This document shows, in pieces, positions 218-19,439 of a stretch of 64,000 bases of DNA (the stretch's first letter is position 1; every line of letters starts with the position of its first letter). The notes beneath the pieces were generated by a model. It was not told the DNA's origin, ran no database searches, and saw only the letters and a list, made by a program, of their open reading frames with translations. Made by a program: the position numbers and the translations under genes. The stretch comes from Nitrospira sp. (GTDB lineage: Bacteria; Nitrospirota; Nitrospiria; Nitrospirales; Nitrospiraceae), in assembly GCA_029194535.1 (NCBI GenBank), contig JARFXR010000001.1, forward strand, positions 1,558,721 through 1,622,720. The letters are read 5' to 3'.

Positions 218-771
218 CTTTCAGTTCCCTCTTCATAGGGAAGGGTGCTTCAACGCTCGGCGAGCGCGGACACGAGATCGCTTGCCAGGTCGGCTTTCAG
301 TTCCCTCTTCATAGGGAAGGGTGCTTCAACCGACGATCAAGTGGACGCATGGAGTCAAGCCATGAACCTTTCAGTTCCCTCTTCATAGGGAAGGGTGCTT
401 CAACGGGCCGCGCTGGAGGCGCAGGCCGCTCGGGTCGCGCCTTTCAGTTCCCTCTTCATAGGGAAGGGTGCTTCAACAGATCGATGTCAGGAAGGCGAAT
501 GCGATGAAACGATTACTTTCAGTTCCCTCTTCATAGGGAAGGGTGCTTCAACGCGGATGGCGACATAATCGAGCACGATGAGGCCGTCCTTTCAGTTCCC
601 TCTTCATAGGGAAGGGTGCTTCAACTGGGGATGAGGCAGTGCTCTGTACGCCGCTTCCGCACTTTCAGTTCCCTCTTCATAGGGAAGGGTGCTTCAACTG
701 GGCGAGGCCGACCTGCGCGGGGCCGACCTGCGCGCTTTCAGTTCCCTCTTCATAGGGAAGGGTGCTTCAAC

Positions 772-880
772 GATCTGGGTCGTCGAGGACGCCGCGAAAA
801 TCGTCACGCTTTCAGTTCCCTCTTCATAGGGAAGGGTGCTTCAACCGTCGGGCCCTGCGGGGCGAGGGAGGCGCGCTCCA
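772..880. repeat. Two-spacer block duplicated within the array (first copy)
   Basis: The spacer at 772-808, the following repeat and the spacer at 846-880 recur exactly at 1137-1245, five repeat units (365 bp) away. This is best explained by unequal recombination between repeats in the old part of the array, not by two independent acquisitions of the same two spacers in the same order. Confidence 0.95.
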
Positions 881-1136
881 CTTTCAGTTCCCTCTTCATA
901 GGGAAGGGTGCTTCAACCCTTGGGTCCGCCTGCGCCTCGTCGCAATCCCCTGACTTTCAGTTCCCTCTTCATAGGGAAGGGTGCTTCAACCGGCCTTTCC
1001 CGATGCTCCCGAACGACCACCATACTGCTTTCAGTTCCCTCTTCATAGGGAAGGGTGCTTCAACTCCTGCCCCCACTTGATTCAGTTTGTCTTGTGCAAC
1101 TTTCAGTTCCCTCTTCATAGGGAAGGGTGCTTCAAC

Positions 1137-1245
1137 GATCTGGGTCGTCGAGGACGCCGCGAAAATCGTCACGCTTTCAGTTCCCTCTTCATAGGGAAGG
1201 GTGCTTCAACCGTCGGGCCCTGCGGGGCGAGGGAGGCGCGCTCCA
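1137..1245. repeat. Two-spacer block duplicated within the array (second copy)
   Basis: Second copy of the block at 772-880; spacers 1137-1173 and 1211-1245 are identical to those at 772-808 and 846-880. The neighbouring spacers differ (954 onward versus 1283-1317), so the visible duplication is two spacers long. Confidence 0.95.
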
Positions 1246-1596
1246 CTTTCAGTTCCCTCTTCATAGGGAAGGGTGCTTCAACCGTCGGGAATGTCCGTCA
1301 GCTCCGTGAAGCCCAGCCTTTCAGTTCCCTCTTCATAGGGAAGGGTGCTTCAACACGGACTCGTCTGAAACGGTGCGGACAGCTTCACGTACTTTCAGTT
1401 CCCTCTTCATAGGGAAGGGTGCTTCAACTCAAACGTTTCGTTTCTGCCCGCCACCATTCTTCAACTTTCAGTTCCCTCTTCATAGGGAAGGGTGCTTCAA
1501 CATCGTCGGCAACGTCGCCCCGTTCGGCCACATCTTCCTTTCAGTTCCCTCTTCATAGGGAAGGGTGCTTCAACCGCGTACTGCACGACGCACCCT

Positions 1597-1623
1597 TGAG
1601 CTAGCCCCACTTTCGTGGACACC
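1597..1623 (+). repeat. Left terminal inverted repeat of the IS3 element
   Basis: It begins TGAGCTAGCCCC and ends GTGGACACC, matching the reverse complement of 2813-2839 at about 22 of 27 positions by eye. TGA...TCA termini are typical of IS3-family elements. Confidence 0.85.
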
Positions 1624-1658
1624 TCAAAAAGGGGACAATAGGTTCCGGGAGGTGTCCG

Positions 1659-1952
1659 ATGGGGAAGCGACAGCAATACACGAAAGAGTTCAAGCTGGAG
1701 GCCGTCCGACTGTGGAAGTCATCGGGACGACCGGCAGCAGCCGTCGCGCGAGAATTGGACCTGCGACGCAATCACCTCTATAAATGGCAGCACGAGATTG
1801 AGAACTTTGGGGAGGCGGCGTTCCCTGGCAAAGGCGGCCGCGCGCACAGCGCCGATGAACTCACGCGCTTGCGACGCGAGAATGCCCGGCTGCGTGAGGA
1901 GCGCGACATTTTAAAAAAAGCCGCGATGTTCTTTGCGCGGGAGTCGCCATGA
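1659..1952 (+). CDS. IS3-family transposase OrfA (helix-turn-helix protein)
   Basis: This 97-residue protein begins MGKRQQYTKEFKLEAVRLW, the usual start of an IS3 OrfA. It has an N-terminal helix-turn-helix (about residues 8-45, including VARELDLRRNHLYKW) and a leucine-zipper-like C-terminal helix (about 65-90, LTRLRRENARLREERDILKKA). OrfA binds the inverted repeats and, when fused to OrfB by frameshifting, forms the active transposase. The final bases overlap the orfB start (ATGA-type overlap at 1949-1952). Confidence 0.95.
   Translation: MGKRQQYTKEFKLEAVRLWKSSGRPAAAVARELDLRRNHLYKWQHEIENFGEAAFPGKGGRAHSADELTRLRRENARLREERDILKKAAMFFARESP
1913..1920 (+). promoter_or_regulatory. A7G slippery site for -1 ribosomal frameshifting
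   Basis: A run of seven A residues followed by G lies near the end of orfA. IS3 elements commonly make an OrfAB fusion by -1 frameshifting on such a run. The relative frames agree: orfB is in the -1 frame relative to orfA. Frameshifting itself is inferred. Confidence 0.7.
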
Positions 1953-2809
1953 GATATCGCTTCATTCAGGCGCATCGCACGGAATACCGGCTCACCGGGT
2001 TGTGTCGCACGCTGGGCGTCAGCCGAAGCGGCTACTATGCCTGGCGCCAGCGCCCCGCCAGTGCGCGGGCGACGGCCAACGCGCGTTTGCTCGAGCAGAT
2101 CCAAGAACTCCATCGACAGACGAAGGCGCGCTACGGTGCTGTGAAGGTATGGCGGGCGTTGCGGCTGGCCGGCGTGCGGTGTGGCCGACATCGCGTGGCG
2201 CGCTTGCGGCGGCAACACGGTCTTCTGGCGCAACGCATTCGGCGCTTTCGCATGACGATCGAACGGCATGAGTTTGCCCCGCCCGCGCCGAACCGACTCC
2301 GGCAGGTCTTTGTGGCCCCGGCCAGCAATCGCATTTGGGCGGGCGATCTCACCGCGATCGCGACCCGCGCCGGCTGGCTATATCTCGCCGTGATCTTAGA
2401 TCTGTATTCTCGGCGAGTGATCGGTTGGGCGATGAGTGCCAAGCCCGATCAGCACGTCGCGCTCCAGGCGATGCACATGGCGCTGGCACAGCGGTGTCCG
2501 CCACCCGGGCTCATTCATCACTCCGATCAGGGGGCGCTCTATACCAGTGTGGCCTACCAACGCCTGTTGGCTCAGCGTGGCGTGATCGCCAGCATGAGTC
2601 GCAAGGGCAACTGTTTCGATAACGCAGTGGTCGAAAGCTTCTTCAGCACGCTCAAGAATGAACTGGTGCATGAGCAGCGGTTTCATACCCGTGAAGACGC
2701 GCAAGCGGCCGTGTTTGAATTCATCGAGGTGTTCTACAACCGACGGCGCCTCCATCAGACGCTGGGCTATGTCAGTCCCATGCAGTTTGAGGCGAGGCGT
2801 CTACCTTAA
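1949..2809 (+). CDS. IS3-family transposase OrfB (DDE integrase)
   Basis: This 286-residue protein has the IS3/retroviral-type integrase core. It has an N-terminal HTH_21-like region with YGAVKVWRAL and a GLLAQRIRRFR segment. The catalytic DDE triad is seen in WAGDLTAI (first Asp), HHSDQGALYTS (second Asp) and NAVVESFFSTLKNEL (Glu). The C-terminal YNRRRLHQTLGYVSP motif is typical of the family. It appears full-length and uninterrupted, so the element could still be active. The start overlaps orfA by 4 nt, and expression as an OrfAB fusion through the upstream A7G site is likely. Confidence 0.96.
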   Translation: MRYRFIQAHRTEYRLTGLCRTLGVSRSGYYAWRQRPASARATANARLLEQIQELHRQTKARYGAVKVWRALRLAGVRCGRHRVARLRRQHGLLAQRIRRFRMTIERHEFAPPAPNRLRQVFVAPASNRIWAGDLTAIATRAGWLYLAVILDLYSRRVIGWAMSAKPDQHVALQAMHMALAQRCPPPGLIHHSDQGALYTSVAYQRLLAQRGVIASMSRKGNCFDNAVVESFFSTLKNELVHEQRFHTREDAQAAVFEFIEVFYNRRRLHQTLGYVSPMQFEARRLP

Positions 2810-2812
2810 CTC

Positions 2813-2839
2813 GGTGTCCATGAAATCGGGGTCAGCTCA
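2813..2839 (-). repeat. Right terminal inverted repeat of the IS3 element
   Basis: Its reverse complement starts TGAGCTGACCCC and ends ATGGACACC, pairing with 1597-1623. It is followed directly by the second CCCT target duplication at 2840-2843. Confidence 0.85.
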
Positions 2840-5800
2840 CCCTTGCGTCGTTTGCACTTTCAGTTCCCTCTTCATAGGGAAGGGTGCTTCAACGGTCTGG
2901 CTTTCACGCCGCGCTCGCCGTGCTGAACCTTTCAGTTCCCTCTTCATAGGGAAGGGTGCTTCAACCAGCGTCGCAAACTGGCGCAAGCCGGGAATTTGCG
3001 CTTTCAGTTCCCTCTTCATAGGGAAGGGTGCTTCAACAGCCGTCCTGATTGTTGACGCGGTAGCAGCGTGTAGCTTTCAGTTCCCTCTTCATAGGGAAGG
3101 GTGCTTCAACCACTGCCCGAGCACGCTATACGGTTCCCGCCGTGAGCTTTCAGTTCCCTCTTCATAGGGAAGGGTGCTTCAACTGATTTCAGGCCAGGCG
3201 ACGACATTGAGGGTGACCCCGCTTTCAGTTCCCTCTTCATAGGGAAGGGTGCTTCAACCGATGCGTGAAATGCGGCGGCTTGATGATAGCGGATGCTTTC
3301 AGTTCCCTCTTCATAGGGAAGGGTGCTTCAACGCTAGCCGTGGCATCAGCCTGTGTGTATATATGCGTGCTTTCAGTTCCCTCTTCATAGGGAAGGGTGC
3401 TTCAACAATCTCATCGACCGGCGTATGATAGAGCTTGTAGCCTTTCAGTTCCCTCTTCATAGGGAAGGGTGCTTCAACCGTCCGGTATGCGACGCACTGG
3501 TTGCCGCATGATGCGCTTTCAGTTCCCTCTTCATAGGGAAGGGTGCTTCAACTTCAAGCAAATGGTCGTCTGGGACAAGGGGCCCATTCTTTCAGTTCCC
3601 TCTTCATAGGGAAGGGTGCTTCAACGCAGGAGGGGATTCAGGCGGCGCGGGCGACGTTTCGGCCTTTCAGTTCCCTCTTCATAGGGAAGGGTGCTTCAAC
3701 ATCCAGAGAATCGGCATCACTTCCCCGTCTTGATTAATCTTTCAGTTCCCTCTTCATAGGGAAGGGTGCTTCAACTACACTGCCCGAGCACGCTATACGG
3801 TTCCCGCCGTGACTTTCAGTTCCCTCTTCATAGGGAAGGGTGCTTCAACGCTGCAGCGCCGGACGATGGAATGCTCGAGCACTGTCACTTTCAGTTCCCT
3901 CTTCATAGGGAAGGGTGCTTCAACGGGTTGACCGCTGCCGTCGAGTCCTTCACTTGCTGCACTTTCAGTTCCCTCTTCATAGGGAAGGGTGCTTCAACAT
4001 CGATCGCCGTGGTCAATGGCGTGCCGTCCATTTATCTTTCAGTTCCCTCTTCATAGGGAAGGGTGCTTCAACGTCTCGATCGGCTCGAACACGGGTGTCC
4101 CGCCTCCATCTTTCAGTTCCCTCTTCATAGGGAAGGGTGCTTCAACGAGGGACGATGAAATTTGAACTCACATCACGATGGACCTTTCAGTTCCCTCTTC
4201 ATAGGGAAGGGTGCTTCAACCTTCAGCTCATGCAGCTCTGGCAGGGCGGCGCGATTACGCCTTTCAGTTCCCTCTTCATAGGGAAGGGTGCTTCAACCCT
4301 CCATACCCGGCCAGGCGAGGTCGTCCTTGATCCATTCTTTCAGTTCCCTCTTCATAGGGAAGGGTGCTTCAACCCATTGCCGTGGTCAATGGCGTGCCGT
4401 CCATCTTCTTTCAGTTCCCTCTTCATAGGGAAGGGTGCTTCAACGACGATGCCGCCCGTGTGGGACTTTCAATCCATTCCTTTCAGTTCCCTCTTCATAG
4501 GGAAGGGTGCTTCAACGCAGCGGGCGGGGCGCTGTCCAGCTTTGATCTGTCCTTTCAGTTCCCTCTTCATAGGGAAGGGTGCTTCAACTCTGGGACGGGA
4601 CCAACACGGCAAGTGTGAATGCGTCTTTCAGTTCCCTCTTCATAGGGAAGGGTGCTTCAACTGCCGAAGCTGTCGAGCCTGTCGGGAGGACTCTTCCTTT
4701 CAGTTCCCTCTTCATAGGGAAGGGTGCTTCAACAAACACCAGAGCGGAGGCGGCGTGATCTTTGTCTGTCTTTCAGTTCCCTCTTCATAGGGAAGGGTGC
4801 TTCAACCGCGGACCCTGCTTGACGGCAGCAAGGCGACCAGTCTTTCAGTTCCCTCTTCATAGGGAAGGGTGCTTCAACCACGCAACGTGAAACGATCGTG
4901 ACGCAGCTTTGCACTTTCAGTTCCCTCTTCATAGGGAAGGGTGCTTCAACATTTGACCTCCGCGTCGTGCGCGGATTTTTGATTCGCTTTCAGTTCCCTC
5001 TTCATAGGGAAGGGTGCTTCAACGCATGACCGTGGCTTCTAACGAGCTGACCGTATTCCTTTCAGTTCCCTCTTCATAGGGAAGGGTGCTTCAACAGGAG
5101 AGGCTAAGCGTATGGATCAATACTTGTTCGCTTTCAGTTCCCTCTTCATAGGGAAGGGTGCTTCAACTGGCGCAGCAAATCGCCGGGGCCGGGGTCTATT
5201 GCACTTTCAGTTCCCTCTTCATAGGGAAGGGTGCTTCAACCGTCCGCCGTTTGCCCGTTGATGGTGTGAGACGAAACTTTCAGTTCCCTCTTCATAGGGA
5301 AGGGTGCTTCAACCGGAGTTACGAGGCGGTGCTTGTGGGTCAGAAGCTCTTTCAGTTCCCTCTTCATAGGGAAGGGTGCTTCAACCTCCATGCGGATCTG
5401 GTGTGAACGCCCCGGCGTCCTTTCAGTTCCCTCTTCATAGGGAAGGGTGCTTCAACAGCGACCGGTCCTCTCGCCAACGGAACAATGGTTCTCTTTCAGT
5501 TCCCTCTTCATAGGGAAGGGTGCTTCAACTGCGCGTGGTCCGGCTCGATACGAACGAGATGGTGGCTTTCAGTTCCCTCTTCATAGGGAAGGGTGCTTCA
5601 ACAAAAGGTCCGCGACTCCCGACTGAAAGCCCAACTCCTTTCAGTTCCCTCTTCATAGGGAAGGGTGCTTCAACTGAAATAGCGGAAGATGGTTTCCGCC
5701 AATGAGGCGACTTTCAGTTCCCTCTTCATAGGGAAGGGTGCTTCAACCGGGAACACCTCGCGCGTCCAGGGTCCTGGACTATCTTTCAGTTCCCTCTTCA

Positions 5801-7133
5801 TAGGGAAGGGTGCTTCAACCACGCAACGCGAGACGATCGTGACGCAGTTTTGCACTTTCAGTTCCCTCTTCATAGGGAAGGGTGCTTCAACCAACGGCGA
5901 TGTGACGGAACTCACCGGCGCAACACTCTTTCAGTTCCCTCTTCATAGGGAAGGGTGCTTCAACCGGCGCGCGATCCTGCACGTTCGCCGCTTTCGCCTC
6001 TTTCAGTTCCCTCTTCATAGGGAAGGGTGCTTCAACAGAGGTGCAGCGCATGAAGGCGCAGGCCGCATCGGCTTTCAGTTCCCTCTTCATAGGGAAGGGT
6101 GCTTCAACAATATCATGAATGATTGGGCGACCGTGCCGCACACGCTCTTTCAGTTCCCTCTTCATAGGGAAGGGTGCTTCAACCGTCTTCAATGGCTCGA
6201 ACGAGGACGGCTTCGAGCTTTCAGTTCCCTCTTCATAGGGAAGGGTGCTTCAACGATTGACGATCTCGGCTCGAAAGGTGGTCAGCCACTCTTTCAGTTC
6301 CCTCTTCATAGGGAAGGGTGCTTCAACGGGCGATCGCTTGCTCCTCACTGAGGGCATTGCGACTTTCAGTTCCCTCTTCATAGGGAAGGGTGCTTCAACG
6401 GGACCTGAGCCCAGGACGTGGCATAGCCGTGCAACCTTTCAGTTCCCTCTTCATAGGGAAGGGTGCTTCAACCGTCGCAATCCCCTGACGGCGGTGCCGA
6501 TCACGGGCACTTTCAGTTCCCTCTTCATAGGGAAGGGTGCTTCAACAACACCCCGTCACGCATCAGCCACCCATATTGCCCCGCTTTCAGTTCCCTCTTC
6601 ATAGGGAAGGGTGCTTCAACGGCTATTGGCATTCGTTTGAAAATAGGGACCAATCACTTTCAGTTCCCTCTTCATAGGGAAGGGTGCTTCAACTCGATTT
6701 CGGAGGCGGCATAGAGCGGCTTCGACAACGCTTTCAGTTCCCTCTTCATAGGGAAGGGTGCTTCAACGCAAATCCACCCCGGTCTTAATCATCGAATCCT
6801 CTTCCTTTCAGTTCCCTCTTCATAGGGAAGGGTGCTTCAACAGCTTAGCGGCTCGTGCCTTCCCACCCTTCTTTCCCACTTTCAGTTCCCTCTTCATAGG
6901 GAAGGGTGCTTCAACGACTGAGCATGCCAGCGGCACGTTCCCGCCGTCCTACTTTCAGTTCCCTCTTCATAGGGAAGGGTGCTTCAACGGTTTGCGCGGA
7001 TCGTCTCATCCGTCCGATCGCCGCCTTTCAGTTCCCTCTTCATAGGGAAGGGTGCTTCAACCACCTGCACCACGCGCACACCGATTAGCTTTGTCGCTTT
7101 CAGTTCCCTCTTCATAGGGAAGGGTGCTTCAAC

Positions 7134-7292
7134 CGCTCACGAAGGGCTCAATAAACCTAGCCAATTTAACAGCCCCTGAAGCCAATTCCTCGAAAACCTC
7201 ATTCTTGCCACAAACCCTGGGTGGTTTGCGATCCCCGCACCACTCGCCAGCGCGGAAAGCGGGTGACTGGTAGCGAATCGCGGTCAGAGCGC
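7134..7292 (-). promoter_or_regulatory. CRISPR leader region
   Basis: This 159-bp segment separates the leader-proximal repeat (7097-7133) from the cas4 stop codon. It contains no repeat and no plausible gene. On the minus strand it runs directly into the repeat whose 3' end carries the crRNA handle, so it should hold the array promoter and the Cas1-Cas2 integration signals. The stretch nearest the array (about 7140-7175) is AT-richer than its surroundings. I could not pick a confident -35/-10 pair. Confidence 0.6.
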
Positions 7293-7910
7293 TCAAAACA
7301 CATCCCCACAAAAGTTGCGATACTCGCAGTCTGTGCAGCGGGCTCGAACCTCGGTCGCCGCCGGCACGCGCTGCGACAGGATCATTTCTCGAATACCATC
7401 CAGCGCCGCGAATATTTCTGACCTGAGTTCGCCGGTCAAGTCAACTGGTTCAACGCGATCGCCGGGAATCAAGTAAATGAATCCACGCGAGACCGGACCC
7501 GCATATGCTTCCTCGACAAGCAAGGCGTACCCGCACAGCTGCAAGAAATGATTTGATCGTGCGGGACCTGTCGTCTCCTTGAAATCGACCGGATACCGGC
7601 CGGTTGACGATTCGATCAGCAAATCCAGCTTGCCGGACAGTCCAAGGATGTCAGAAGTCAGCCATACGTGAAAGTGACGCCGGCCATCCGGCAGCCCGTA
7701 CCGACGTACCCCTCGCCGCCGCTCCAATTCATCCAGCCGTTCCTCAGCCGACTTGCCATGCTCCATCTTGAACGTTGCCTTCCGCTCGACCGGCATGACG
7801 TATTGGTAATAGACGACGCGCGGGCAGTAGTCAAACTGCTTCAGATCGTTCACCCGGAGCATCAGCTTGGGGTGCGTCACGTTCGGTGTCGGCATCTTCA
7901 TTGTCGACAT
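7293..7910 (-). CDS. cas4: Cas4 exonuclease (CRISPR adaptation)
   Basis: Cas4 is an iron-sulfur RecB-like nuclease that trims prespacers and helps set PAM and orientation with Cas1-Cas2. The 205-residue product shows the N-terminal cysteine (FDYCPRVVYY), a RecB-like core (GKLDLLIE, YPVDFKETTG, LQLCGYALL) and a C-terminal cluster C-x2-C-x5-C (RCTDCEYRNFCGD). The longest frame starts at 7910 and overlaps cas2 by 80 nt. An internal ATG at 7862 (MLRVNDLKQFDYCPR) is a reasonable alternative start with a shorter overlap. It is the last cas gene before the leader. Confidence 0.95.
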   Translation of the reverse strand: MSTMKMPTPNVTHPKLMLRVNDLKQFDYCPRVVYYQYVMPVERKATFKMEHGKSAEERLDELERRRGVRRYGLPDGRRHFHVWLTSDILGLSGKLDLLIESSTGRYPVDFKETTGPARSNHFLQLCGYALLVEEAYAGPVSRGFIYLIPGDRVEPVDLTGELRSEIFAALDGIREMILSQRVPAATEVRARCTDCEYRNFCGDVF

Positions 7911-8169
7911 GTAGGCCTTGCCGGATATCTTTTTCGCAGACCGGCTGAAGAAGGATCTTGCCCGGCCGCTTGCTCAACACGTCACCCAGCCGAAGGAAGA
8001 GTTCTTCCCGTTTGTTACGCGTCAGCGAACCGCAAAACGCGCTGAATTGGATACGCTCGAGGCCATAATCCTTACAGACATCGGCAATCTTTGTGCGAAC
8101 ACCATCGTCCGGAATGTCATACAAGACGTAGGTGGTGACTTCCTCAACAGACACCGATACCGCTACCAC
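7831..8169 (-). CDS. cas2: Cas2 (CRISPR adaptation)
   Basis: This 112-residue protein has the Cas2 ferredoxin-like fold signature: beta-1 with YVLYDIPDDGVRTKIADVC, then GLERIQFSAFCG and the LRLGDVL helix. Cas2 dimers bridge two Cas1 dimers in the spacer integrase. The last roughly 30 residues (acidic, with DNEDADTERDAPQADAP) extend beyond the usual fold and are encoded by the stretch that overlaps cas4. The start overlaps the end of cas1 by 7 nt, so cas1-cas2-cas4 look translationally coupled. Confidence 0.96.
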   Translation of the reverse strand: MVAVSVSVEEVTTYVLYDIPDDGVRTKIADVCKDYGLERIQFSAFCGSLTRNKREELFLRLGDVLSKRPGKILLQPVCEKDIRQGLHVDNEDADTERDAPQADAPGERSEAV

Positions 8170-9380
8170 TTAAAGGTGAACGGGCTATATCTGCCTTCTC
8201 GACGCAAGAACGTACACAGGCTCCGTGCCTGCATCTGGATAATAGATTTGATCTGATATTTCTTGCCCTTCACTGTCTCGGTGGATTCCAGCCGTTCCAG
8301 GATTTTGGCCGCATAGCGCGAGCGGGTCTCTTCGTCCAACATCCCGGCCTTAAGGGTGACGGCCTCGCCGAGATTGATGTGCGCGATCACGGTGCGGTCC
8401 ACGACCGGCTGGCGGAATTCTTCAACGAGATCCAGCACCAACGACGGTTTGCCTGGACGATCGACATGCAGGAAGCCGGCAAACGGCTCAAGGCCTGCAT
8501 TGAGTACAGCGCCCCAGATTTGAGAATAGAGAATCCCGTAGCCGTAGTTCAGCAAGCTGTTCACCACGTCCGTCGCGCCGCGATGCTCGCGTCCCATGAA
8601 CTCAGCGCGCTGGCCGATGATCTCCTTCACACCATCCCAGTAGAGACGTCCTGCTGTTCCCTCGTAGCCCATTAATGAATCTCGCACATCGTCAAGATGC
8701 GCGCCCACGATTCGCTCAATGGCTGGATGAAGGTCCGCGATCTGATCTGCGACTCGGTCCACGTGTTCAAACCGGGGCGGGTCAGCTTGCTTCAAATACT
8801 TGCCGAAATAGCGGAGCAGCCGCTCTTGATTGGTCAACTTTCCGGCCACAATCAGCTTGGCGAATTCTATGCCACGCGTGTCTCCCATCGCGGCCAACTG
8901 CTCCCGTCGCGAGATCACCGTGGCAGTGAGCATAGGGGAGGACAGCATCGCATAGGGCTTGCCTCCGTGCGTGAGGAAGCTCAGCCGAATACCGCGCTGA
9001 CACAGCTCTTCGACGACATCGGACGAAAGCGTCACGCCGCGCGACGCCACGACCACCTCGCTCAACCGGAAGAAGGGGAATTCATAGATGACCGTCTTGT
9101 TCTGACGGACCAGCAACCGCTCGCTCTTTTTCGAGAGAAACATGCCGAAGCCGGAGAGCACCACCTGGGATGTGTCGCCGGTCTTCACCATCCGGATGCC
9201 CTCGTCGATCACGCGTTCCTCACCGTCCGGCGGCTCGGTTTCGATCGGCACGACCACCGCTTCCGGCTCGCCGGTGAAGAGATTGATTTGGGCAGGCGGC
9301 AGTTCGCGAATACGCTGAGGCGCTGAGACTTCGGGATGAATGCGGGTGAGGAGATCGGGTTCTGCAGACTGGGCGCTCAT
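8163..9380 (-). CDS. cas1: Cas1 spacer integrase
   Basis: Cas1 catalyses insertion of new spacers at the leader-proximal repeat. The 405-residue product contains the N-terminal beta-domain (residues about 75-150, SRGVTLSSDVVEELCQRGI) and the alpha-helical catalytic domain with GYEGTAGRLYW (Glu), NYGYGILYSQIWGAVLNAG, PFAGFLH (His) and LVLDLVEEFR (Asp). It is longer than a typical 320-340-residue Cas1, because about 70 residues precede the usual start and contain an INLFTGEPEAVVVP segment. Its function is not obvious. A VapBC-like module lies 60 nt upstream. Confidence 0.97.
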   Translation of the reverse strand: MSAQSAEPDLLTRIHPEVSAPQRIRELPPAQINLFTGEPEAVVVPIETEPPDGEERVIDEGIRMVKTGDTSQVVLSGFGMFLSKKSERLLVRQNKTVIYEFPFFRLSEVVVASRGVTLSSDVVEELCQRGIRLSFLTHGGKPYAMLSSPMLTATVISRREQLAAMGDTRGIEFAKLIVAGKLTNQERLLRYFGKYLKQADPPRFEHVDRVADQIADLHPAIERIVGAHLDDVRDSLMGYEGTAGRLYWDGVKEIIGQRAEFMGREHRGATDVVNSLLNYGYGILYSQIWGAVLNAGLEPFAGFLHVDRPGKPSLVLDLVEEFRQPVVDRTVIAHINLGEAVTLKAGMLDEETRSRYAAKILERLESTETVKGKKYQIKSIIQMQARSLCTFLRREGRYSPFTFKW

Positions 9381-9440: not shown

Positions 9441-9887
9441 TCAGCGTTTCGATGACGGCTTAAAGGGATTGATCACAGTAAGCCCTGGGATTCTCCGAAA
9501 ATCACGTTCGTTCTCAGTCACGATAGTGCTGACCCCATGCTCAAGCATGCAGGCTGCGATCAGGGCATCCCAGATAGAAGCTCGGTGGAGCGTCACCAGT
9601 TCAATGGCTTTTAACAGCGTGTCGGCATTGCGGTCGAGCACGTGCCACTGCGATCCGGTAAGGATTCCAGACACAACGGCTTCTGCCTGATCCAGTGCGA
9701 GCGGTTTAACGACCTTGCGCGTCACGACAAAGAAGAACTCAGAGAGGTTCTGTAAGGTTGTAGCTGCTCTCTCACCCTCCCAAATCCGTGTTAACCAGGA
9801 TGACGCCTGTTCATGCTTCCGTTGATCAATAACGGAGTAGGCGTGGACCAGCACATTGGTATCAATGAGGGAGGGTTCACCGTTCAT
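9441..9887 (-). CDS. VapC-like PIN-domain toxin embedded in the cas operon
   Basis: PIN-domain toxins are Mg-dependent ribonucleases that act on RNA. This frame shows the acidic residues expected: Asp in LIDTNVLVHAY, Glu in LQNLSEFFFVV, Asp in SIWDALIAACM, and a final ENERDF. I chose the start at 9887 (MNGEPSLIDTNVLV), which overlaps the antitoxin stop by 11 nt; the longer frame to 9923 adds an unlikely N-terminus. It forms a two-gene operon with the upstream antitoxin. The pair sits between cas3 and cas1 on the same strand, so it probably shares transcription with the cas genes. Its cellular target cannot be told from the sequence. Confidence 0.88.
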   Translation of the reverse strand: MNGEPSLIDTNVLVHAYSVIDQRKHEQASSWLTRIWEGERAATTLQNLSEFFFVVTRKVVKPLALDQAEAVVSGILTGSQWHVLDRNADTLLKAIELVTLHRASIWDALIAACMLEHGVSTIVTENERDFRRIPGLTVINPFKPSSKR

Positions 9888-10092
9888 AGAGCTCTTCCCG
9901 CTTCTTATAGAGCAGTTTCCCAACCCGCGGAGCGTGCCTCATCAAGTCCTTCTGACGCCTTGCGATCTCCTGGTCTTTCGCGGCCTGATCAAGCGGTTTG
10001 ATCTCCACGAGGGCCGGGCATTCATCGGGAAGATCCGGCCTCTCGTCAAGCACGATCGTGTTGCCTTTCACAATTCCCTTATAGGTCTTCAT
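9877..10092 (-). CDS. Putative VapB-type antitoxin (AF2212-like)
   Basis: This 71-residue protein starts MKTYKGIVKGNTIVLDERP and continues LPDECPALVEIKPL, which resembles the small beta-rich AF2212-like antitoxins that pair with PIN toxins. The C-terminal half is a charged helix (about 40-71, KDLMRHAPRVGKLLYKKREEL) likely to bind the toxin. The ATG at 10092 is chosen over the longer frame because the family normally begins at this point. It precedes and overlaps the PIN gene, the usual antitoxin-toxin order. Confidence 0.75.
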   Translation of the reverse strand: MKTYKGIVKGNTIVLDERPDLPDECPALVEIKPLDQAAKDQEIARRQKDLMRHAPRVGKLLYKKREELYER

Positions 10093-10283: not shown

Positions 10284-11963
10284 TCATCTATTACCTGACT
10301 CCCAGAAGCATCGTCGATGCTCTTTGTCTTTCTTGCCCTCGTATCGTTGATGGTACTCGCGTTTCTCTAGCGGAGCAGCCACTCGCCACTCTGAGTAACC
10401 CATTTCATGCCAGAACGGCAGGTCGGTCAGATCCGCAACAGACTCCAACTGGTAACGATTGGCAATGGGAACCCAGTCGTAGGCAAACCGGGTGCCGTGC
10501 CAATTGAACACAGCTTGCGAGTTCGGCGGACGGAAATGAAAGCGTAACTTTCGGACCTCTGGAGGAACCTGCCAGAAGCGGCGCAGCGCTCGCACCTTGT
10601 CCTCGTCCCAGAGGTAGTAGCTGACGTAGTCTTCAGGCCGAAAAGCTAGCTCACCGAACGTCTTTAGCAGGAGTTCACCGAATTCTCCCTTCGTCAGTGT
10701 AGATTTGTTGTTGAGTAGTGAAAAGAGGAGCCCGGGCTCTCGGCCAGTGATCCAGATATGGGCCTGCGATCTCCCGGCTTCGTCAGAGCGCCCAACTCTA
10801 CCGATACGCTGAATGATGGAAGAAACCTCCCAGTTATTCCCCCAGAACTCGGTGTGGACCTCTCGGAATGGTAGGTCAAGACCAACTTCGGCAGCGGACG
10901 TCGCGACAACTAGCCGTGCTTCGTCGTTGTGTGTCTTCTGGATTCCAGTCCATTCAATCAGTCGTGTCCCCGCTGATCGAAGTGCCTCCGCCGTTTCGTG
11001 GACGGCAATCACCGAATGATAAAAGTAAATCACGCGATGCTGCGGCGACCTGTCGACAATCCGAATATCGTCACGGTGTAGGTACAGCTCAATTGGATGC
11101 GAGGCGATCCTCTCCTCTGCCGGCGATGCTGCCGTGGATCCGCCTGGATCGAAAGTATCTGCGTCGGAGAAATAATCGGATCTGCCAGTCGCTGACAGGC
11201 AGAGCCATCTCACCGTCCCCAGCTTCTCCAGCGCTCCTGACAAGTTCAGATAGGTGTACGGATCGTAGAAATGGTACTCGTCAATTACGACTTGGTGCTC
11301 AGCGAGCTTTAGTTCGAGTTCGTCTCGCCAACGAGTGTTGTAGAAGTTTCCTGTGACGGAGTAACAGCGTTGCGCGACATAGCCCAGGAGGTCTGGCGAG
11401 CAAAGAATGATGTGGTCGCGCTGATTGAGGACGTCCAGGACCGCGAGAAGAAAGGTTCCCTTCCGGCGCCCAAGCTCAACAATGTTCTCCTCTGAGAACA
11501 AGTGCTGCAGACCTTCGCCAGTAAGCACCGTCACGTAGAGGTCTCGCCCGCGAAGATGCTGGGGAAGCTTGAAGACATACGTCGGGGCTCCTCGCCTCAC
11601 CACTTGCTCGAAGCTCGCTGTATCACGAACGAAGCACCGCTGAATGGGATCAATCGCTCCCACCGCGACGCACTTTGCGCCGACCCACTCGACCAAGGCG
11701 CGAACAACGGAACGCTCGAACTGATCGCGCGACAACAGATTCGTTGGGTAAGTCAGGATCGTTCTGACCAGTGTGTCTGGTCGTTCGAACGTGTCTCGAA
11801 GAGCAAAGAGTACGGCGCCGAGAGTCTTGCCACCGGCGGTTGGGACATGTACCTTCAGCTTTTGGAAGCCTGCCTCATGCAGAAGGAAGTGTTGGTGCGC
11901 ATAGATAGGACGCAAGAGCCGTTTGTCACGAAAAACCGGCAGTCGCTCCGCAGCTAGTTCCAC
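10284..11963 (-). CDS. cas3: Cas3 helicase of type I-D (Cas3')
   Basis: This 559-residue protein is a superfamily 2 helicase without a fused HD nuclease, as in type I-D where the HD domain sits on Cas10d. Walker A is HVPTAGGKT (residues about 39-47), motif II is DEYH at 228-231, motif III is LSATG at 256-260, and the C-terminal motif VI is SIIQRIGRVGRSDE. It unwinds target DNA after interference-complex binding. The start overlaps csc1 by 10 nt, so it is translationally coupled to the Cascade genes. Confidence 0.93.
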   Translation of the reverse strand: MELAAERLPVFRDKRLLRPIYAHQHFLLHEAGFQKLKVHVPTAGGKTLGAVLFALRDTFERPDTLVRTILTYPTNLLSRDQFERSVVRALVEWVGAKCVAVGAIDPIQRCFVRDTASFEQVVRRGAPTYVFKLPQHLRGRDLYVTVLTGEGLQHLFSEENIVELGRRKGTFLLAVLDVLNQRDHIILCSPDLLGYVAQRCYSVTGNFYNTRWRDELELKLAEHQVVIDEYHFYDPYTYLNLSGALEKLGTVRWLCLSATGRSDYFSDADTFDPGGSTAASPAEERIASHPIELYLHRDDIRIVDRSPQHRVIYFYHSVIAVHETAEALRSAGTRLIEWTGIQKTHNDEARLVVATSAAEVGLDLPFREVHTEFWGNNWEVSSIIQRIGRVGRSDEAGRSQAHIWITGREPGLLFSLLNNKSTLTKGEFGELLLKTFGELAFRPEDYVSYYLWDEDKVRALRRFWQVPPEVRKLRFHFRPPNSQAVFNWHGTRFAYDWVPIANRYQLESVADLTDLPFWHEMGYSEWRVAAPLEKREYHQRYEGKKDKEHRRCFWESGNR

Positions 11964-12604
11964 TGATGCGCTTCCTCAATGTTCGGAACAACAACTTTCA
12001 TGCGGTCAGCCACCAGGACTTTCGAGAAGATGCCGGAAAGGTAGTAGAGCGGTGATGGTTTCATTGGTACCTTCCGCGCATAGGTCACCGACGATATCTC
12101 CTCGTAGTCGATTGGGTTCACCACGTGACCCGGCCGCACCAGGATCCGGCCATGCGACCGAAACGGAATCTCAGCGGCCTTCCAAGCGACGGATGGATCT
12201 GGCGGCAACAGCGCACAGGGGGTTCGCTTCTTGCCGAAGTGGATGATCTCTGGTGGCTCAAAATCGTCTCGAGACAGGATATAGAACTCGAAGGTAGAGC
12301 CGGGAATGTAGTACTCGATTTCCATCAGTCCCATCTTGCCGGCCCCAGTGTCTTCCGGAACCGGGTTCCGCTTGTAGATGCGTCGCTCGGCAATCAGCGG
12401 AATCGCAGGGGTGCAATAGAACCTCATGCCGCGCAAATCACAAATGTGATCGGGCTCGACCCTCGGCGTCGGTCTGATATCATTCACCGCGAACATCAAC
12501 GCCCAGTTGTGAAGGACGTCCGAGACGCGGGTAACCTTTAGATACTCGGAGGCATAGAAATGAAGATATCCCTTCGCCTCCAGTTTCGCGCGGAAAAGCC
12601 TCAT
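11954..12604 (-). CDS. csc1: Csc1 (Cas5d-type subunit of I-D Cascade)
   Basis: Csc1 is the Cas5-family RAMP that caps the 5' handle of crRNA in type I-D. The 216-residue product begins MRLFRAKLEAKGYLHFYAS and contains SDVLHNWALMFAVND, the region typical of Csc1, then a beta-rich body. Position supports the call: it lies between csc2 (4-nt overlap) and cas3 (10-nt overlap). The sequence alone is divergent, so the family assignment leans partly on context. Confidence 0.88.
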   Translation of the reverse strand: MRLFRAKLEAKGYLHFYASEYLKVTRVSDVLHNWALMFAVNDIRPTPRVEPDHICDLRGMRFYCTPAIPLIAERRIYKRNPVPEDTGAGKMGLMEIEYYIPGSTFEFYILSRDDFEPPEIIHFGKKRTPCALLPPDPSVAWKAAEIPFRSHGRILVRPGHVVNPIDYEEISSVTYARKVPMKPSPLYYLSGIFSKVLVADRMKVVVPNIEEAHQWN

Positions 12605-13734
12605 GCGGCCGCCTCTTCGTCCTCTTCCTGTTCTCCACCGACCACAGACTCAATTAACCGGGCCATCCCATACTCCGTACTCAGGAACCTTGCAATTTTG
12701 TCATCAGGCGGCTCTTCCTTTTTCGGCCCGTCCAGGGCTTTTAGGAGAGTATTTGCCGCATTCTTCAGATCTTGTGATGTTTTCACTTCCTCACAGATTT
12801 GTGTGCGTCTTGTCGCTACGTCCCACTTCTTCCACTCCAGGTCCTTGTTGCTAGCATCTTTGATTTTCTTCTTCAGAAGCTCGGGTGCTAACCGTCTCGA
12901 CACCTCCTCGAAATAGTCTGGGATGGAGAGATCGACCAGGTTCCTACGTCTAGCAAGTTCGCTTACCTCTGCCGATTGAGCGAGTTTGCGAATCAACTCA
13001 TCTACCTCGGTGTCGGTGCAGGTGATGGTGGTCAAGGTTAGACCATTTTCCCTGATGTGATCTTGAATCTTGTCTTTAGATTTGAGACGGGCTAAGTCAA
13101 TCGCCGCGATGCGCAGGCGTGTATCTTCGACTACTCCCAAAATCGAATTGTGCACCTCGCCATAGATCCTCGTGTTTGCACCGTACCGGTCGCTATGCTC
13201 GATCCCCCAAATCAGAAGCTTCACCCATTTGTCGTCGTTCGCCTCTACCGTCACGACATCGATAAAGTCACGCGGTTCGATGATCTGATTAGTAAAGAGC
13301 GATGTGCCCGTCTGACCGGTTCGTTCATCCACGGCGTTGGATGTGACGTCTCGAATGCCGCCGCCCACGAACGGAAAGGCTGCGGTGTAAAAAGCTCGAC
13401 GCATTTCGATGGCGTTCTTCTGGCCGCTACCGCCACCTTTCTTTGGGGCATAGGTTCCACCAAACAAGGCGCATGCCGGACAAGACATACACAGGCCAGA
13501 GATTCCTGCATCTCCGCCCTTTTTCGCCGTGGTTAGCCAGCAGCGGACACTCAGGACCTCTCGCACCTTGCGCATGATCGTTCGGCGTTCGACTGCCTTA
13601 AGTTTCTCGCCGAAGATGATTGGCCGCTCGTCATCATCCCCAAACTCATACGTGTTCGTCTCGTCACGCGACTCCGTCACGAATTGCCCAAACCCTTTCA
13701 GGCTTCTGAGAACAACCACCTGATACTTTTTCAT
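12601..13734 (-). CDS. csc2: Csc2 (Cas7 backbone subunit of I-D Cascade)
   Basis: Csc2 is the Cas7-family RAMP that polymerises along the crRNA spacer. The 377-residue product shows RTIMRKVREVLSVRCWLTT, a Zn-binding-like segment ISGLCMSCPACALFGG (three Cys), and SDRYGANTRIYGEVHNSILGV, all consistent with Csc2. The C-terminal tail is acidic (GGEQEEDEEAAA). It overlaps cas10d upstream and csc1 downstream by 4 nt each, indicating one co-translated effector block. Confidence 0.94.
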   Translation of the reverse strand: MKKYQVVVLRSLKGFGQFVTESRDETNTYEFGDDDERPIIFGEKLKAVERRTIMRKVREVLSVRCWLTTAKKGGDAGISGLCMSCPACALFGGTYAPKKGGGSGQKNAIEMRRAFYTAAFPFVGGGIRDVTSNAVDERTGQTGTSLFTNQIIEPRDFIDVVTVEANDDKWVKLLIWGIEHSDRYGANTRIYGEVHNSILGVVEDTRLRIAAIDLARLKSKDKIQDHIRENGLTLTTITCTDTEVDELIRKLAQSAEVSELARRRNLVDLSIPDYFEEVSRRLAPELLKKKIKDASNKDLEWKKWDVATRRTQICEEVKTSQDLKNAANTLLKALDGPKKEEPPDDKIARFLSTEYGMARLIESVVGGEQEEDEEAAA

Positions 13735-14165
13735 TGTCCCCCTCCTTGCTGACTAGCGTCCGCACGTATGGTCTGGGCCACTTCTGCATTCGGTGTTTGC
13801 GGGTTGGTCTCTGGCTTGCTGAAATAGGCAAGTGTATAGATCATTGCGCGGACAACCTCTGTGCGGCGGTATGTCTGGTCTTTGTACCGCAGCAGTTTTT
13901 CCGCTGCCTTCTTCAACGCCGCCTCCTCTTTTGGCTGGTTCTCACGCGACCGCCATTTGCCATCTCGTGTCGAGATGGCAAGATGCAGTCCTTTTGCCAC
14001 CATTGCATCAACGAGGCTTGCATCGTCCTCTTTACCCTTCAGTCGCCGCAGGGTTTCGTTCATTCCACGGATGACCTTGCCCGCACCATCTTCGCGATCT
14101 CTCCCGCTTATCCAGATGTCGGCCAGGAACGTAAGCCCCGTCTTTTCCGCAATTTCTTGTACCAT
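13731..14165 (-). CDS. cas11d: Probable Cas11d small subunit, internal translation product of cas10d
   Basis: Inside cas10d an in-frame ATG at 14163-14165 is preceded by GGAGG with an 8-nt spacer (the minus strand reads CGGAGGTTGAGCGA then ATG). This would give a 144-residue protein starting MVQEIAEKTGLTFLADIW and sharing the cas10d stop. Published work on type I-D systems shows that the small subunit Cas11d is made by independent translation from within cas10d. The size and the helical, charged composition here fit that role. Expression is an inference from the ribosome-binding site and the family precedent. Confidence 0.72.
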   Translation of the reverse strand: MVQEIAEKTGLTFLADIWISGRDREDGAGKVIRGMNETLRRLKGKEDDASLVDAMVAKGLHLAISTRDGKWRSRENQPKEEAALKKAAEKLLRYKDQTYRRTEVVRAMIYTLAYFSKPETNPQTPNAEVAQTIRADASQQGGGQ

Positions 14166-16187
14166 TCGCTCAACCTCCGGTTTTGATTCCCGCGTAACGC
14201 GAATTGAACCGTCCGCAAGGAGAGTTCCGAACGCGTAAGGGCTCTGCTGCAGGACTCTGATCGTGCTCGTGTATGGCCGCTTGGAGCTTAGGAGCCGCAA
14301 TGCTCGCCTGAGAATAGGCCATGCTTCAGTGCCAACGCTGATGCTTCCACACGTGAGGAGACTTCGAGAGTTGGTGGGTGTCGTGACTATCACTGCACCC
14401 TTGAGCCCGTAGCGATAGAGCCGATCCAGAATCTGCTCTTCCCCCCGGTTGGGATCAGCCGTCAGCTCTTGCAGCAGCGTTTCCCGGTCGCGTCCTTTTA
14501 AGGAGAGCACGGCTATGTGAGGGTACACTCCACTTCCCAATATCGTGCCCGGCGCACCAAGTTCGACGAGAGGACTTCCTGAATCAGGTTGAAGAATTTC
14601 CCCCCAGTCAAGTCGTGCGAAAAGGTGATGCGGCATTACGCACACGTGATACAGGTGGCGCTTGCCTTCGGCGTCCACTGAAATGAGATCCCACCATTTC
14701 GCACACCAATCGCAGAAGGATACACCGCGCCTTGCCATACCCTCCTTTTTGATCAAGCGCATATGGGTCGTGTAAAAGACCTCCACGGTTCCTCCCAGCG
14801 GTGAGTTCTGCGGGAACGCCGCTGCGGTCACGTTTCCCTGTGCAAACTGATGGCACGCGGGGCACACGTCCAGCGGTTCCTTCCTCTTGTATCGCTCGTA
14901 ATCAGCAAGCGCGTCCGCCTTAGGGTCTAACGGGGACTGCAGTGGGTATGTGGCGGTGTCGGGTACGAGAAGAGTCCGCACATCATACCGAAGCGATCGG
15001 GCGTCAGCGCCGGGATTATCCGATCGGGACGCCCCTAACATTTTTTGCACGGAGGACTGTAAAGCCTGGAGGATCTCATCCAATGTCCGTTCATAGGTGG
15101 CTGGTGGCTTCAAGAACCCAAAGACCTTCAGGGACTCCACTGTAACCCTGCCATGGCGTCCACCTGCCATAAGGCAAGCCCGGTGCCGTTCCTTCTCAGG
15201 GATGTTACACAAGTCCAGGATGGTGTTGTACGTGATTCCACAGACACGGCCATAGAGGTACACCTCCTCCCGTTCGTCAGACCACTGTGCAGGATTCTTC
15301 TCGGCCACCTTGCGCTTGCGAGCACAGTAACTGTTGGCAATGGAAGTGGCCTGTTCGACGAACTTGGCTGGATCCGATGCCAGCTTCAGAAAGCTGCACT
15401 CATCTGTGTAGATTCGTGCGTTGCCGTCATCGTATCGAAGGACCCCTTTACTGCCGCCGAGCTGCTCATTAAGAAATGCGTTCGCCTCATCGAGCGACGG
15501 CAATGTGGCATCGACCTCTGCGAGGTATAGAGTTGAGGTTGCCGAGTAGAGCAGCGGCCAGATCCTTCCGGTTTCTGCGAAGATGTAGTCGAAGGCTCCG
15601 ATGGCGAGCGCCGACATCGGATGATCGATGAGTTCAACGGTGAACAGGCGGTAGCGAACTGTATCGATGATTGCGTTGAGGGTTCGGATTAGGCCTTCGG
15701 AAATCCGCGTCTGTGAGATCGCACGATCACATTCGCTGACCACATCCTTCATCCGGTTTCGTGCTGGAGTTGAAGCGGCCCGACCGGAACCGTGGTGGTG
15801 TTCAATAATGAAGAGAATGTCGTCAATATCAGCGGAGGTGAGAAGATCCCGCGAGTACCTCTGGATTCCGCTGCCAACAATGGCGTTCAGTTCCCCATAC
15901 TTCACATCCTCAAGCGTCACCTTGTGTGGCCCTCGCAGAGACTTCTGCCAGTTTGCAGAAGTCTTCCCGTAGTCATGAAGAAGCGCTGCCCAGCGCATCA
16001 GTTCCTTGTCCGACTCAGAGTACACCTGCATAAACGGCAGCACACCATCGACGAGCGCGTACGCGCTGAAGCTGTGGATGAAAAGACTCTCGTTCCAGGA
16101 CTTCGCATGGTACAGGTGGAAGCCACATTCGCGCAGAACTTGAAGGGCACGTTGCCGCGTCAGGCCTGTGTGGTTCCCGTGCGTCAT
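13731..16187 (-). CDS. cas10d: Cas10d (Csc3) large subunit with HD nuclease domain
   Basis: Cas10d is the large subunit of type I-D Cascade and carries the HD nuclease that other type I systems place on Cas3. The N-terminal HD domain is visible: FIHSF (His38), LLHDYGK (His71, Asp72) and IIEHHHG. A Zn-binding pair follows in the middle, VCPACHQF and FCDWCAKWW. The C-terminal quarter is helical and contains the Cas11d internal start. I chose ATG 16187 (818 residues), preceded by GGGG; a longer frame to 16256 adds 23 residues that overlap the cas6-tail remnant. That remnant's stop codon lies one base before this ATG (TAGCATG). Confidence 0.93.
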   Translation of the reverse strand: MTHGNHTGLTRQRALQVLRECGFHLYHAKSWNESLFIHSFSAYALVDGVLPFMQVYSESDKELMRWAALLHDYGKTSANWQKSLRGPHKVTLEDVKYGELNAIVGSGIQRYSRDLLTSADIDDILFIIEHHHGSGRAASTPARNRMKDVVSECDRAISQTRISEGLIRTLNAIIDTVRYRLFTVELIDHPMSALAIGAFDYIFAETGRIWPLLYSATSTLYLAEVDATLPSLDEANAFLNEQLGGSKGVLRYDDGNARIYTDECSFLKLASDPAKFVEQATSIANSYCARKRKVAEKNPAQWSDEREEVYLYGRVCGITYNTILDLCNIPEKERHRACLMAGGRHGRVTVESLKVFGFLKPPATYERTLDEILQALQSSVQKMLGASRSDNPGADARSLRYDVRTLLVPDTATYPLQSPLDPKADALADYERYKRKEPLDVCPACHQFAQGNVTAAAFPQNSPLGGTVEVFYTTHMRLIKKEGMARRGVSFCDWCAKWWDLISVDAEGKRHLYHVCVMPHHLFARLDWGEILQPDSGSPLVELGAPGTILGSGVYPHIAVLSLKGRDRETLLQELTADPNRGEEQILDRLYRYGLKGAVIVTTPTNSRSLLTCGSISVGTEAWPILRRALRLLSSKRPYTSTIRVLQQSPYAFGTLLADGSIRVTRESKPEVERMVQEIAEKTGLTFLADIWISGRDREDGAGKVIRGMNETLRRLKGKEDDASLVDAMVAKGLHLAISTRDGKWRSRENQPKEEAALKKAAEKLLRYKDQTYRRTEVVRAMIYTLAYFSKPETNPQTPNAEVAQTIRADASQQGGGQ

Positions 16188-16188
16188 G

Positions 16189-16500
16189 CTAACCCCAGCT
16201 ACTCGAACAGGCTCTACTCGTAGTCCCACTCTTTGGTGGGCTTGCTTTCCGGACACGTATCTGCATCCACACTGCGGTCCTTTCCATAACTCCTGATCGG
16301 TCCATTAACCGTACAACCTCATACTGCCCGTTTCCCCACACGGCATACTTCCCCACATGCGTGTACTGCCCCAGGATCAGGAGCGGCAGAAATTCTTCGA
16401 GGTCCCCTTGATACGTCGCCTCGCCGATGAAGCCGCCCATCTCGTGGGCAAGGCTGGTTTTCCATGACCGGGCCTTCGCTAGACTCCCTTCGCCCAGCAC
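16189..16500 (-). pseudogene. cas6 3'-end remnant A, directly upstream of cas10d
   Basis: The segment 16316-16471 matches the 3' end of the intact cas6 (18448-18603) without gaps, with about 10 differences in 156 bp by eye. It encodes MGGFIGEATYQGDLEEFL and HVGKYAVWGNGQYE in frame. The reading frame is open and continues about 30 codons past the point where the intact cas6 stops, ending in TAG one base before the cas10d ATG. It is probably what remains of the ancestral cas6 terminus after toxin-antitoxin genes were inserted upstream. It might be translated and so couple translation into cas10d; this is not shown. Confidence 0.85.
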
Positions 16501-16509
16501 TTATGCCGG

Positions 16510-16905
16510 TCATGGTTCACTGTCCACACTCTGCTCAAGTCGGCGACTGACCGCTTCCACGAATTCATGGGCTGCCGCGATCCCGGCCTGCGCTTGTTCG
16601 TCTGTGATCACCGCCAGGCCGTAGTCGCTTTCGGCCCTGTCTTCAAAGCCATCTCGGAGCAGAGCAAAGAGCTTCGCGGGAACCTCTCCGCTTTTGACGA
16701 AGTGCTCGTTGAATGCCGCAATGACGGCGGAGTGTTTAGAGCGACGAATATCGCGCGACAACAGGAGGGCCTGTGCGGTGTAGAACATGGCGTAGTAGGC
16801 CCGAGAGACCGAAAAGTCACTGTCGCCATCACGAAACAGCCGTTGTGCCGCAAGGAGACTCCGCCGGGCTTTGTCTATGAGTTCGTGGATTTCCTTCCTG
16901 CTCAA
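16510..16905 (-). CDS. HEPN-domain toxin of an MNT-HEPN pair
   Basis: The 131-residue helical protein resembles small HEPN proteins (IHELIDKARRSLLAAQRL, SVSRAYYAMFYTAQALLLS, HSAVIAAFNEHFVKSG). HEPN proteins of this kind act as RNases or ATP-dependent toxins and are neutralised by a minimal nucleotidyltransferase, in some cases by AMPylation. A conserved RAYYAMFY segment and RRSKH lie where catalytic Arg/His residues are usually found, but I cannot assign a definite R-x4-6-H motif. It overlaps the MNT gene by 4 nt and follows it in the same operon. The pair sits between cas10d and cas6, bounded on both sides by partial cas6 tails. Confidence 0.85.
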   Translation of the reverse strand: MSRKEIHELIDKARRSLLAAQRLFRDGDSDFSVSRAYYAMFYTAQALLLSRDIRRSKHSAVIAAFNEHFVKSGEVPAKLFALLRDGFEDRAESDYGLAVITDEQAQAGIAAAHEFVEAVSRRLEQSVDSEP

Positions 16906-17243
16906 AGCGGGACTCCCTCTTCACGGATATTCTGAAAAACAGAGAAGTCACCGCGTTCCTTGCGCATATGCTGGTCCACAATCAGGAGGGAGAGAACAAT
17001 TTCAGTCTCGATCGAGACTTCTCCGGCAGCCCGGCGGATTCGCTGCTTTTCCGCAAACGAGATATGTTCTTGCTCAATCTCTAGGAGGACGTCCATATCC
17101 GAGTCCGGCTCGGCGTCTCCCCTGGCCCGCGACCCGAAGAGGGTCATCTGAAATGCCCGGTCGGGGAACTCCCGACGGATTCGCACTCGGAGGCCTTCAA
17201 GAACGGCGCGCTCTGCTTGCGACAGCTCCTCAACCGTTTTCAT
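16902..17243 (-). CDS. MNT-type nucleotidyltransferase antitoxin
   Basis: This 113-residue protein is a minimal nucleotidyltransferase. It shows the core signature MTLFGSRARGDAEPDSDMDVLLEIE (GSRARG followed by D-x-D at about residues 38-54) and a further acidic strand VSIETEIVLSLL. MNT proteins pair with HEPN toxins and can detoxify them by adenylylation. It precedes the HEPN gene with a 4-nt overlap, the expected order. Its upstream side is a diverged cas6 tail (remnant B). Confidence 0.88.
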   Translation of the reverse strand: MKTVEELSQAERAVLEGLRVRIRREFPDRAFQMTLFGSRARGDAEPDSDMDVLLEIEQEHISFAEKQRIRRAAGEVSIETEIVLSLLIVDQHMRKERGDFSVFQNIREEGVPL

Positions 17244-17302
17244 GTTTGGCTTTTATCCCTGTACTAATTTGAGTATCGTGGTCGCCATTATAAGACACAA
17301 TC

Positions 17303-18434: not shown

Positions 18435-19439
18435 TTATATAACGCTCACCTCATATTGCCCATTCCCCCACACCGCATACTTCCCCACATGCGTGTACTG
18501 CCCCAGGATCAAGAGCGGCAGAAATTCTTCGAGGTCCCCTTGATACGTCGCCTCACCGATGAAGCCGCCCATGTCGTGGGTGAGGCTGGTTTTCCGTGAC
18601 CGGCGATCGCGGTCTTCCCATCTGATGTTGCAGTGCACTGTTCGGACCGCTTCTGCTCGTTGTCCGAACGCTTTGAAATCCATCGCCAGTGTGTCGTCGC
18701 AGTAGAAATGGGCGACGGCGTTGATCCGGTCGCGCAGGCGCTTGATGAGATGGTGGAAGTCGGGGCGTGTGACGATCTTGCCGTCGGCTTTAAGGAGAGT
18801 TGGGGTGAGAAAGCGGATTGTCACGCGCTGGGCCTGTGTGAGAAATCGCTCTGTCGCGAGACGGCAACAGTCCTTATAGGTAATCCTGAGGGGCGACGGG
18901 TGAACGACGTTGTCGCGGCCCGAATAGATCTCTGCGACTTCGTTCCCATCTTCGCTGAGCAGAGACACCTGAACAATCCTGTAGCGCCCTCGGCCAAGTC
19001 CGATGCCTTGGGTTCCCAACTCTCGGAACGTGACCAAAAAATATGAGAAGTGCTCGAGGGCTTTGCCGATCAGGATGAGATCGAAGTGGAGAGCCTCGCC
19101 GGGCCGGGCCATCGTCTCGATGCCGTTCGGTGGACGGAACACGAAAGGGCGGGGAATGTCTTGATTCAAGCTCAGCCGGTCGCTGTCCGGCGGAGGGCTC
19201 GGCTCAAAGATCTGTCCGTACGGACAGGTGGCTTTCATCCGGCAGGTCTCGCGGCAGTCTGCCGGCGTGGGACAGACCAGTCTCTGGAATGTGGACCCGA
19301 AGGCGCCACGCAGCGTGTTGCCGGGATTGCGAGGGTGGAGTGCCAGTCGGTCCTCGGCCTCCAGCGCGAACCGGAATTGTGCAAGGGAGAAGGAGTGCAG
19401 CATGCTGCTCGTCGGAAGAACACTTACTGACTTGGACAT
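18435..19439 (-). CDS. cas6: Cas6 crRNA endoribonuclease (intact copy)
   Basis: Cas6 cuts the repeat hairpin to release crRNAs with an 8-nt 5' handle. The 334-residue product shows the features of the COG5551-like Cas6 group: RNPGNTLRGAFG near residue 40, a cysteine-rich segment (CPTPADCRETCRMKATCPYG), YFLVTFRELG, and the glycine-rich C-terminal end MGGFIGEATYQGDLEEFLPL with HVGKYAVWGNGQYE. It is the only intact copy; partial 3' copies lie at 16316-16471 and 17303-17465. Starts at 19439 or 19403 (MLHSFSLAQ) are both possible. It is the first cas gene in transcription order, unlike the usual I-D layout where it follows csc1. Confidence 0.9.
   Translation of the reverse strand: MSKSVSVLPTSSMLHSFSLAQFRFALEAEDRLALHPRNPGNTLRGAFGSTFQRLVCPTPADCRETCRMKATCPYGQIFEPSPPPDSDRLSLNQDIPRPFVFRPPNGIETMARPGEALHFDLILIGKALEHFSYFLVTFRELGTQGIGLGRGRYRIVQVSLLSEDGNEVAEIYSGRDNVVHPSPLRITYKDCCRLATERFLTQAQRVTIRFLTPTLLKADGKIVTRPDFHHLIKRLRDRINAVAHFYCDDTLAMDFKAFGQRAEAVRTVHCNIRWEDRDRRSRKTSLTHDMGGFIGEATYQGDLEEFLPLLILGQYTHVGKYAVWGNGQYEVSVI
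18448..18603 (-). repeat. cas6 3'-end direct repeat, copy C (within intact cas6)
   Basis: Reference copy for the direct repeats at 16316-16471 (A, same length and about 94 percent identical by eye) and 17303-17465 (B, more diverged). All three copies have the same orientation. The repeats separate two toxin-antitoxin modules, so the locus reads cas6 body, tail C, TA, tail B, TA, tail A, cas10d. Confidence 0.9.

Follow-up and report, generated by a model that had tools for sequence, protein, structure and literature searches.

The type I-D-like CRISPR array described here very probably took up spacers from a phage DNA-methyltransferase (MTase) gene (phrog_67; tailed phages with relatives in IMG/VR) on at least three occasions, and its crRNAs should direct cutting. 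The spacers (29, 39, and 53) and the gene family that they match were identified directly. At the mechanistic level, at least three separate uptakes of a spacer from the DNA-methyltransferase gene of tailed phages would have taken place. The crRNAs, probably read from the minus strand, would pair with the coding strand of the MTase gene, so that Cascade and Cas3' would cut the phage DNA at that site. This is a well-supported case of ordinary CRISPR immunity, in which the MTase is no more than a widespread phage gene containing conserved sites.

The array and its type I-D-like cas genes

The array lies at the start of the window (the whole stretch of DNA analyzed, 64,000 nt) and is the only one in the genome with this repeat. 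The locus comprises:

218..7133, minus strand: CRISPR array of 78 identical 37-nt repeats (crRNA strand GTTGAAGCACCCTTCCCTATGAAGAGGGAACTGAAAG) and 77 spacers of 34-40 nt
7134..7292, minus strand: putative leader between the array and cas4, on the same strand as the repeat GTTGAA..ACTGAAAG, as in L105
7293..9380, minus strand: adaptation genes cas4 (7293-7910), cas2 (7831-8169), and cas1 (8163-9380)
9441-9923, minus strand: gene for a PIN-domain protein, between cas1 and cas3'
10284..16256, minus strand: type I-D-like effector genes, given individually in the next four lines
10284-11963, minus strand: cas3' helicase
11954-12604, minus strand: csc1/cas5d, a weak match under the NCBIfam cut-off
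12601-13734, minus strand: csc2/cas7d
13731-16256, minus strand: divergent HD large subunit of 841 aa, matching HD models only
18435..19439, minus strand: cas6

Read on the minus strand, the repeat has ACTGAAAG as its ending, and the array-cas4 gap is upstream of the array; therefore, the crRNAs are probably read from this strand. The repeat of the Synechocystis type I-D system has the same ending. Most spacers are 35-37 nt long and 75 are distinct, with spacers 8-9 (772-880) being exact copies of spacers 13-14 (1137-1245) through a duplication internal to the array. Spacer 19 is interrupted by an IS3-family insertion (1597-2839) with CCCT at each side; before the insertion, this spacer would have measured 35 nt. 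The idea that the spacers as a whole favor one strand was rejected: 38 of the 77 are plus-coding, which is balanced, according to a strand classifier that is only 71% accurate.

The cas gene set is type I-D-like, with the Cas3', Cas5d (Csc1; weak), and Cas7d (Csc2) genes that type I-D requires. It resembles the type I-D systems of Synechocystis, Microcystis, and Sulfolobus (PMC10212523) in the Cas3' helicase being apart from an HD-bearing large subunit, in the Csc1/Cas5d, Csc2/Cas7d, Cas6, and Cas4-Cas1-Cas2 components, and in the predominant spacer length. It differs from them in the large subunit, which gave no match to Cas10d models, whereas two of its distant homologues within the phylum (L144 and L146; homologues at 25-29% identity) match these models weakly, and L144 has a Cas3d gene alongside. 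No homologue of this subunit was found elsewhere in the order (235 further genomes), and the phylum yielded distant HD-region homologues only.

Judging from its likeness to that of a Gaiellales MAG (L105), the adaptation module has apparently been transferred between distant hosts. There, Cas1, Cas4, and Cas2 are 87, 78, and 78% identical, the repeat is nearly identical, and the array, leader, and cas4 are arranged in the same way. No large subunit like the one at 13731-16256 was found in that genome. Regarding cas6, a second copy of a 156-nt stretch from its 3' end (94% identical) is found within ~16189-16500, and HEPN/nucleotidyltransferase and AbiEii-type toxin-antitoxin genes lie between this copy and the full cas6 (16189-19439).

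Three spacers and a phage DNA methyltransferase

Three spacers translate into MTase peptides:

3553..3588, plus strand: spacer 29, FKQMVVWDKGPI of the phage MTase, with 2 mismatches to L065 and L007, and 3 to L050
4298..4336, plus strand: spacer 39, LHTRPGEVVLDP(F), MTase motif I, one residue off L047
5314..5348, plus strand: spacer 53, RSYEAVLVGQK of the MTase, one residue off L050, with 7 mismatches in its best DNA match (L068)

The sequence-only reading had placed the three spacers at these positions, with these plus-strand translations, and had likened them to conserved methyltransferase stretches read in one direction; our analyses confirmed all of this. Since the peptides are merely 11-12 residues long, they might resemble methyltransferase motifs by chance, an explanation that retains practically no weight. 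Against 50 distinct phage MTases, spacers 29, 39, and 53 reached best ungapped BLOSUM62 scores of 68, 62, and 49, above those of all 462 shuffled spacers (maximum 41); none of the other array spacers matched (next-best score 34). Moreover, three independent spacers fall in one protein on one strand, and spacer 29 –whose peptide is identical to that of L019– has only 2 nt mismatches to L065 over 36 nt, both in the final four bases (one in the third base of a codon and the other changing Ile to Met). A degenerate DNA pattern for MVVWDKGPI/M retrieved 33 IMG/VR stretches, and the matched frame was the same MTase in 33/33; the pattern has ~21 fixed bases, for which we estimate far fewer than one chance match.

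Along the MTase gene, the order is spacer 29, then 53, then 39, with a gap of 21 nt between the first two sites. The alignment reads FKQMVVWDKGPMGMGWHYRRSYETVLVAQK, followed ~50-60 residues further by LHTxPGDxVLDPF, and its conserved blocks in order are FKQMVVWDKGP-GMGWHYR-RSYE...LHxxPG..VLDPF. It is well supported that a single family of phage DNA methyltransferases supplied all three spacers.

The assignment of spacer 39 to the phrog_67 family is the weakest of the three because motif I is common to other methyltransferases. Thus, the spacers could derive from two or three methyltransferase kinds, with spacer 39 coming, for example, from a plasmid or a restriction-modification enzyme. Its motif-I peptide is indeed widespread, stretches of 30-33 nt match Ruegeria phage, Cedecea, and Eleftheria plasmid methylases at ~85%, and its flank departs from the CC pattern described below. 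However, spacer 39 shows the LH[T/S]xPG context that typifies phrog_67, those other enzymes have NSTLPG, SFTRPG, or NSSRPG instead, and L047 is a single residue away from its peptide. We consider this mixed origin unlikely, and a single family remains the preferred reading.

The targeted MTases match phrog_67 and PF01555, and they resemble DpnA (PDB 5hek) and CcrM (PDB 6pbd). Motif IV (DPPY) precedes motif I (LDPFxG), as in known beta-class MTases of phrog_67/PF01555, with which they share full-length sequence homology; therefore, the enzyme is assigned to the beta-class DNA methyltransferases (N6-adenine/N4-cytosine type). A protein search for relatives retrieved 62 loci, more than 50 of them in the same MTase family. 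More than 50 IMG/VR contigs carry this family, and they are phage contigs by the neighboring genes seen in some of them: the MTase of L068 lies near terminase and portal genes, that of L063 near RecT and HNH genes, and L061 is a carrier phage with three methyltransferases. The relatives in cultured phages (Gordonia, Mycobacterium, and Natrialba PhiCh1 phages) are at most ~33% identical to the targeted subfamily among the proteins found.

The targeted subfamily also differs from known phrog_67/PF01555 members by a run of consecutive cysteines. At least three of them stand directly ahead of the GGGPDPQFARW block in 48/50 MTase genes (L047-L099), with longest runs of 4-12. In most of the listed genes the cysteine codons are uniformly TGC or uniformly TGT, resembling a trinucleotide repeat. 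A literature search on this cysteine run found no paper with the terms tried.

Repeated sampling of phage sites and the flanking bases

Other spacers also return to previously sampled sites:

3999..4035, plus strand: spacer 35, (S)IAVVNGVPSIY of a phage RecT-like annealing protein, with 4 mismatches to L106
4374..4407, plus strand: spacer 40, IAVVNGVPSI, the RecT-like site shared with spacer 35, with synonymous codon differences and 4 mismatches to L106
918..953, plus strand: spacer 10, with a 16-nt overlap with spacer 69 that exposes its flank CGG (CCG on the crRNA side)
6473..6509, plus strand: spacer 69, carrying on the target of spacer 10

Spacers 47 and 60 have one common site (differing at two synonymous positions and by one Leu/Phe substitution), and so do spacers 23 and 32. 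With the pairs 35/40, 47/60, 23/32, and 10/69, phage sites were visited more than once. Spacers 29, 39, and 53 lie apart in the array; given polarized addition, they were therefore probably taken up at different times.

Methylase spacers might be preferentially selected or retained, since disabling the methylase would re-expose the phage to restriction, and one gene of ~0.75 kb is indeed matched by 3/75 distinct spacers. Nevertheless, if every invader is a 40-50 kb phage carrying a 0.75-kb methylase gene, we estimate that 1.2-1.4 methylase spacers are expected, with three or more at p ~0.12-0.17; therefore, three represent no clear excess, and preferential targeting finds no support in the expected count. 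Besides, detection is biased toward conserved motifs, the RecT-like gene is also matched twice (spacers 35 and 40), and the spacer strands are balanced (38/77). This preference is thus very unlikely, and repeated uptake from a common phage gene suffices as our reading.

Regarding the flanks, the three crRNA-side bases are NCC for spacer 29 in 50/50 MTase genes and CCN for spacer 53 in 44/50. In L106 they are CCC for spacer 35 and CCA for spacer 40. The flank of spacer 39 in homologues is mostly ATG or ATA. The PAM predicted to be shared by the three sites thus holds in part: CC adjoins sites 29 and 53, but not site 39. Over all, a CC-type flank is seen at 4/5 sites, for which we estimate a chance of ~0.0015 (the background of GG within three bases being 0.137, and the motif having been picked post hoc), and GTN is absent at the four CC-flanked sites (29, 53, 35/40, and 10; homologous or overlapping sequence). 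The type I-D PAM has been reported as GTN or GTH (PMC10212523), whereas the flanks here suggest a CCN-type PAM (5'-CCN); it is only suggested because homologues replace the true protospacers. A divergent type I-D system with a CCN-type PAM in place of GTN, repeatedly sampling core phage genes (methyltransferase and RecT), is a tentative possibility that we hold with rather low confidence.

The source phage and its significance

A perfect protospacer was found for none of the three spacers. The best DNA matches are L065 for spacer 29 (2 mismatches), L068 for spacer 53 (7 mismatches), and L082 for spacer 39 (9 mismatches), and sites 39 and 53 are at least 9 and at least 7 nt away from every sampled phage. 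These matches lie in different contigs, so the expectation of a single gene holding two or three protospacers was not borne out. Since none of the sampled contigs closely matches all three spacers, the source phage is unsampled. The earlier proposal of an array repeatedly targeting the anti-restriction methylase of a recurring phage can be kept as to one gene family and separate acquisitions; one recurring phage, a methylase preference, and an anti-restriction role all go beyond the evidence.

DNA searches gave no convincing protospacer for any spacer in phage records, nor for spacers 29, 39, and 53 in plasmid records; a match of spacer 7 was discarded as merely generic pentapeptide repeats. 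In IMG/VR, neither the patterns built on the exact peptides of spacers 39 and 53 nor the pattern for the 47/60 site had a match. The MTase-block pattern and all the spacers, run against 236 genomes of the host's order, revealed no prophage source and no self-target. An MTase protein search gave two distant matches only in the order and, with a stricter cut-off, none in 396 genomes of the phylum. Methyltransferases of the host itself match the spacers weakly and only in the motif-I half; therefore, self is not the spacer source.

Spacers against phage methyltransferases are already known from Streptococcus pyogenes SF370 (PMC6546361), where the type I-C array holds one and the type II-A array another. 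That case differs in the CRISPR subtypes and in having one methyltransferase spacer per array, compared with three here. Carrying three separately acquired MTase fragments, this bacterium would therefore have met phages with that gene several times. Its phages appear to be unsampled, and the kind met repeatedly are carriers of a distinctive cysteine-rich DNA methyltransferase. The three spacers are concrete probes for locating those phages, and the CC-type flanks hint that PAM usage may differ in this divergent I-D branch.
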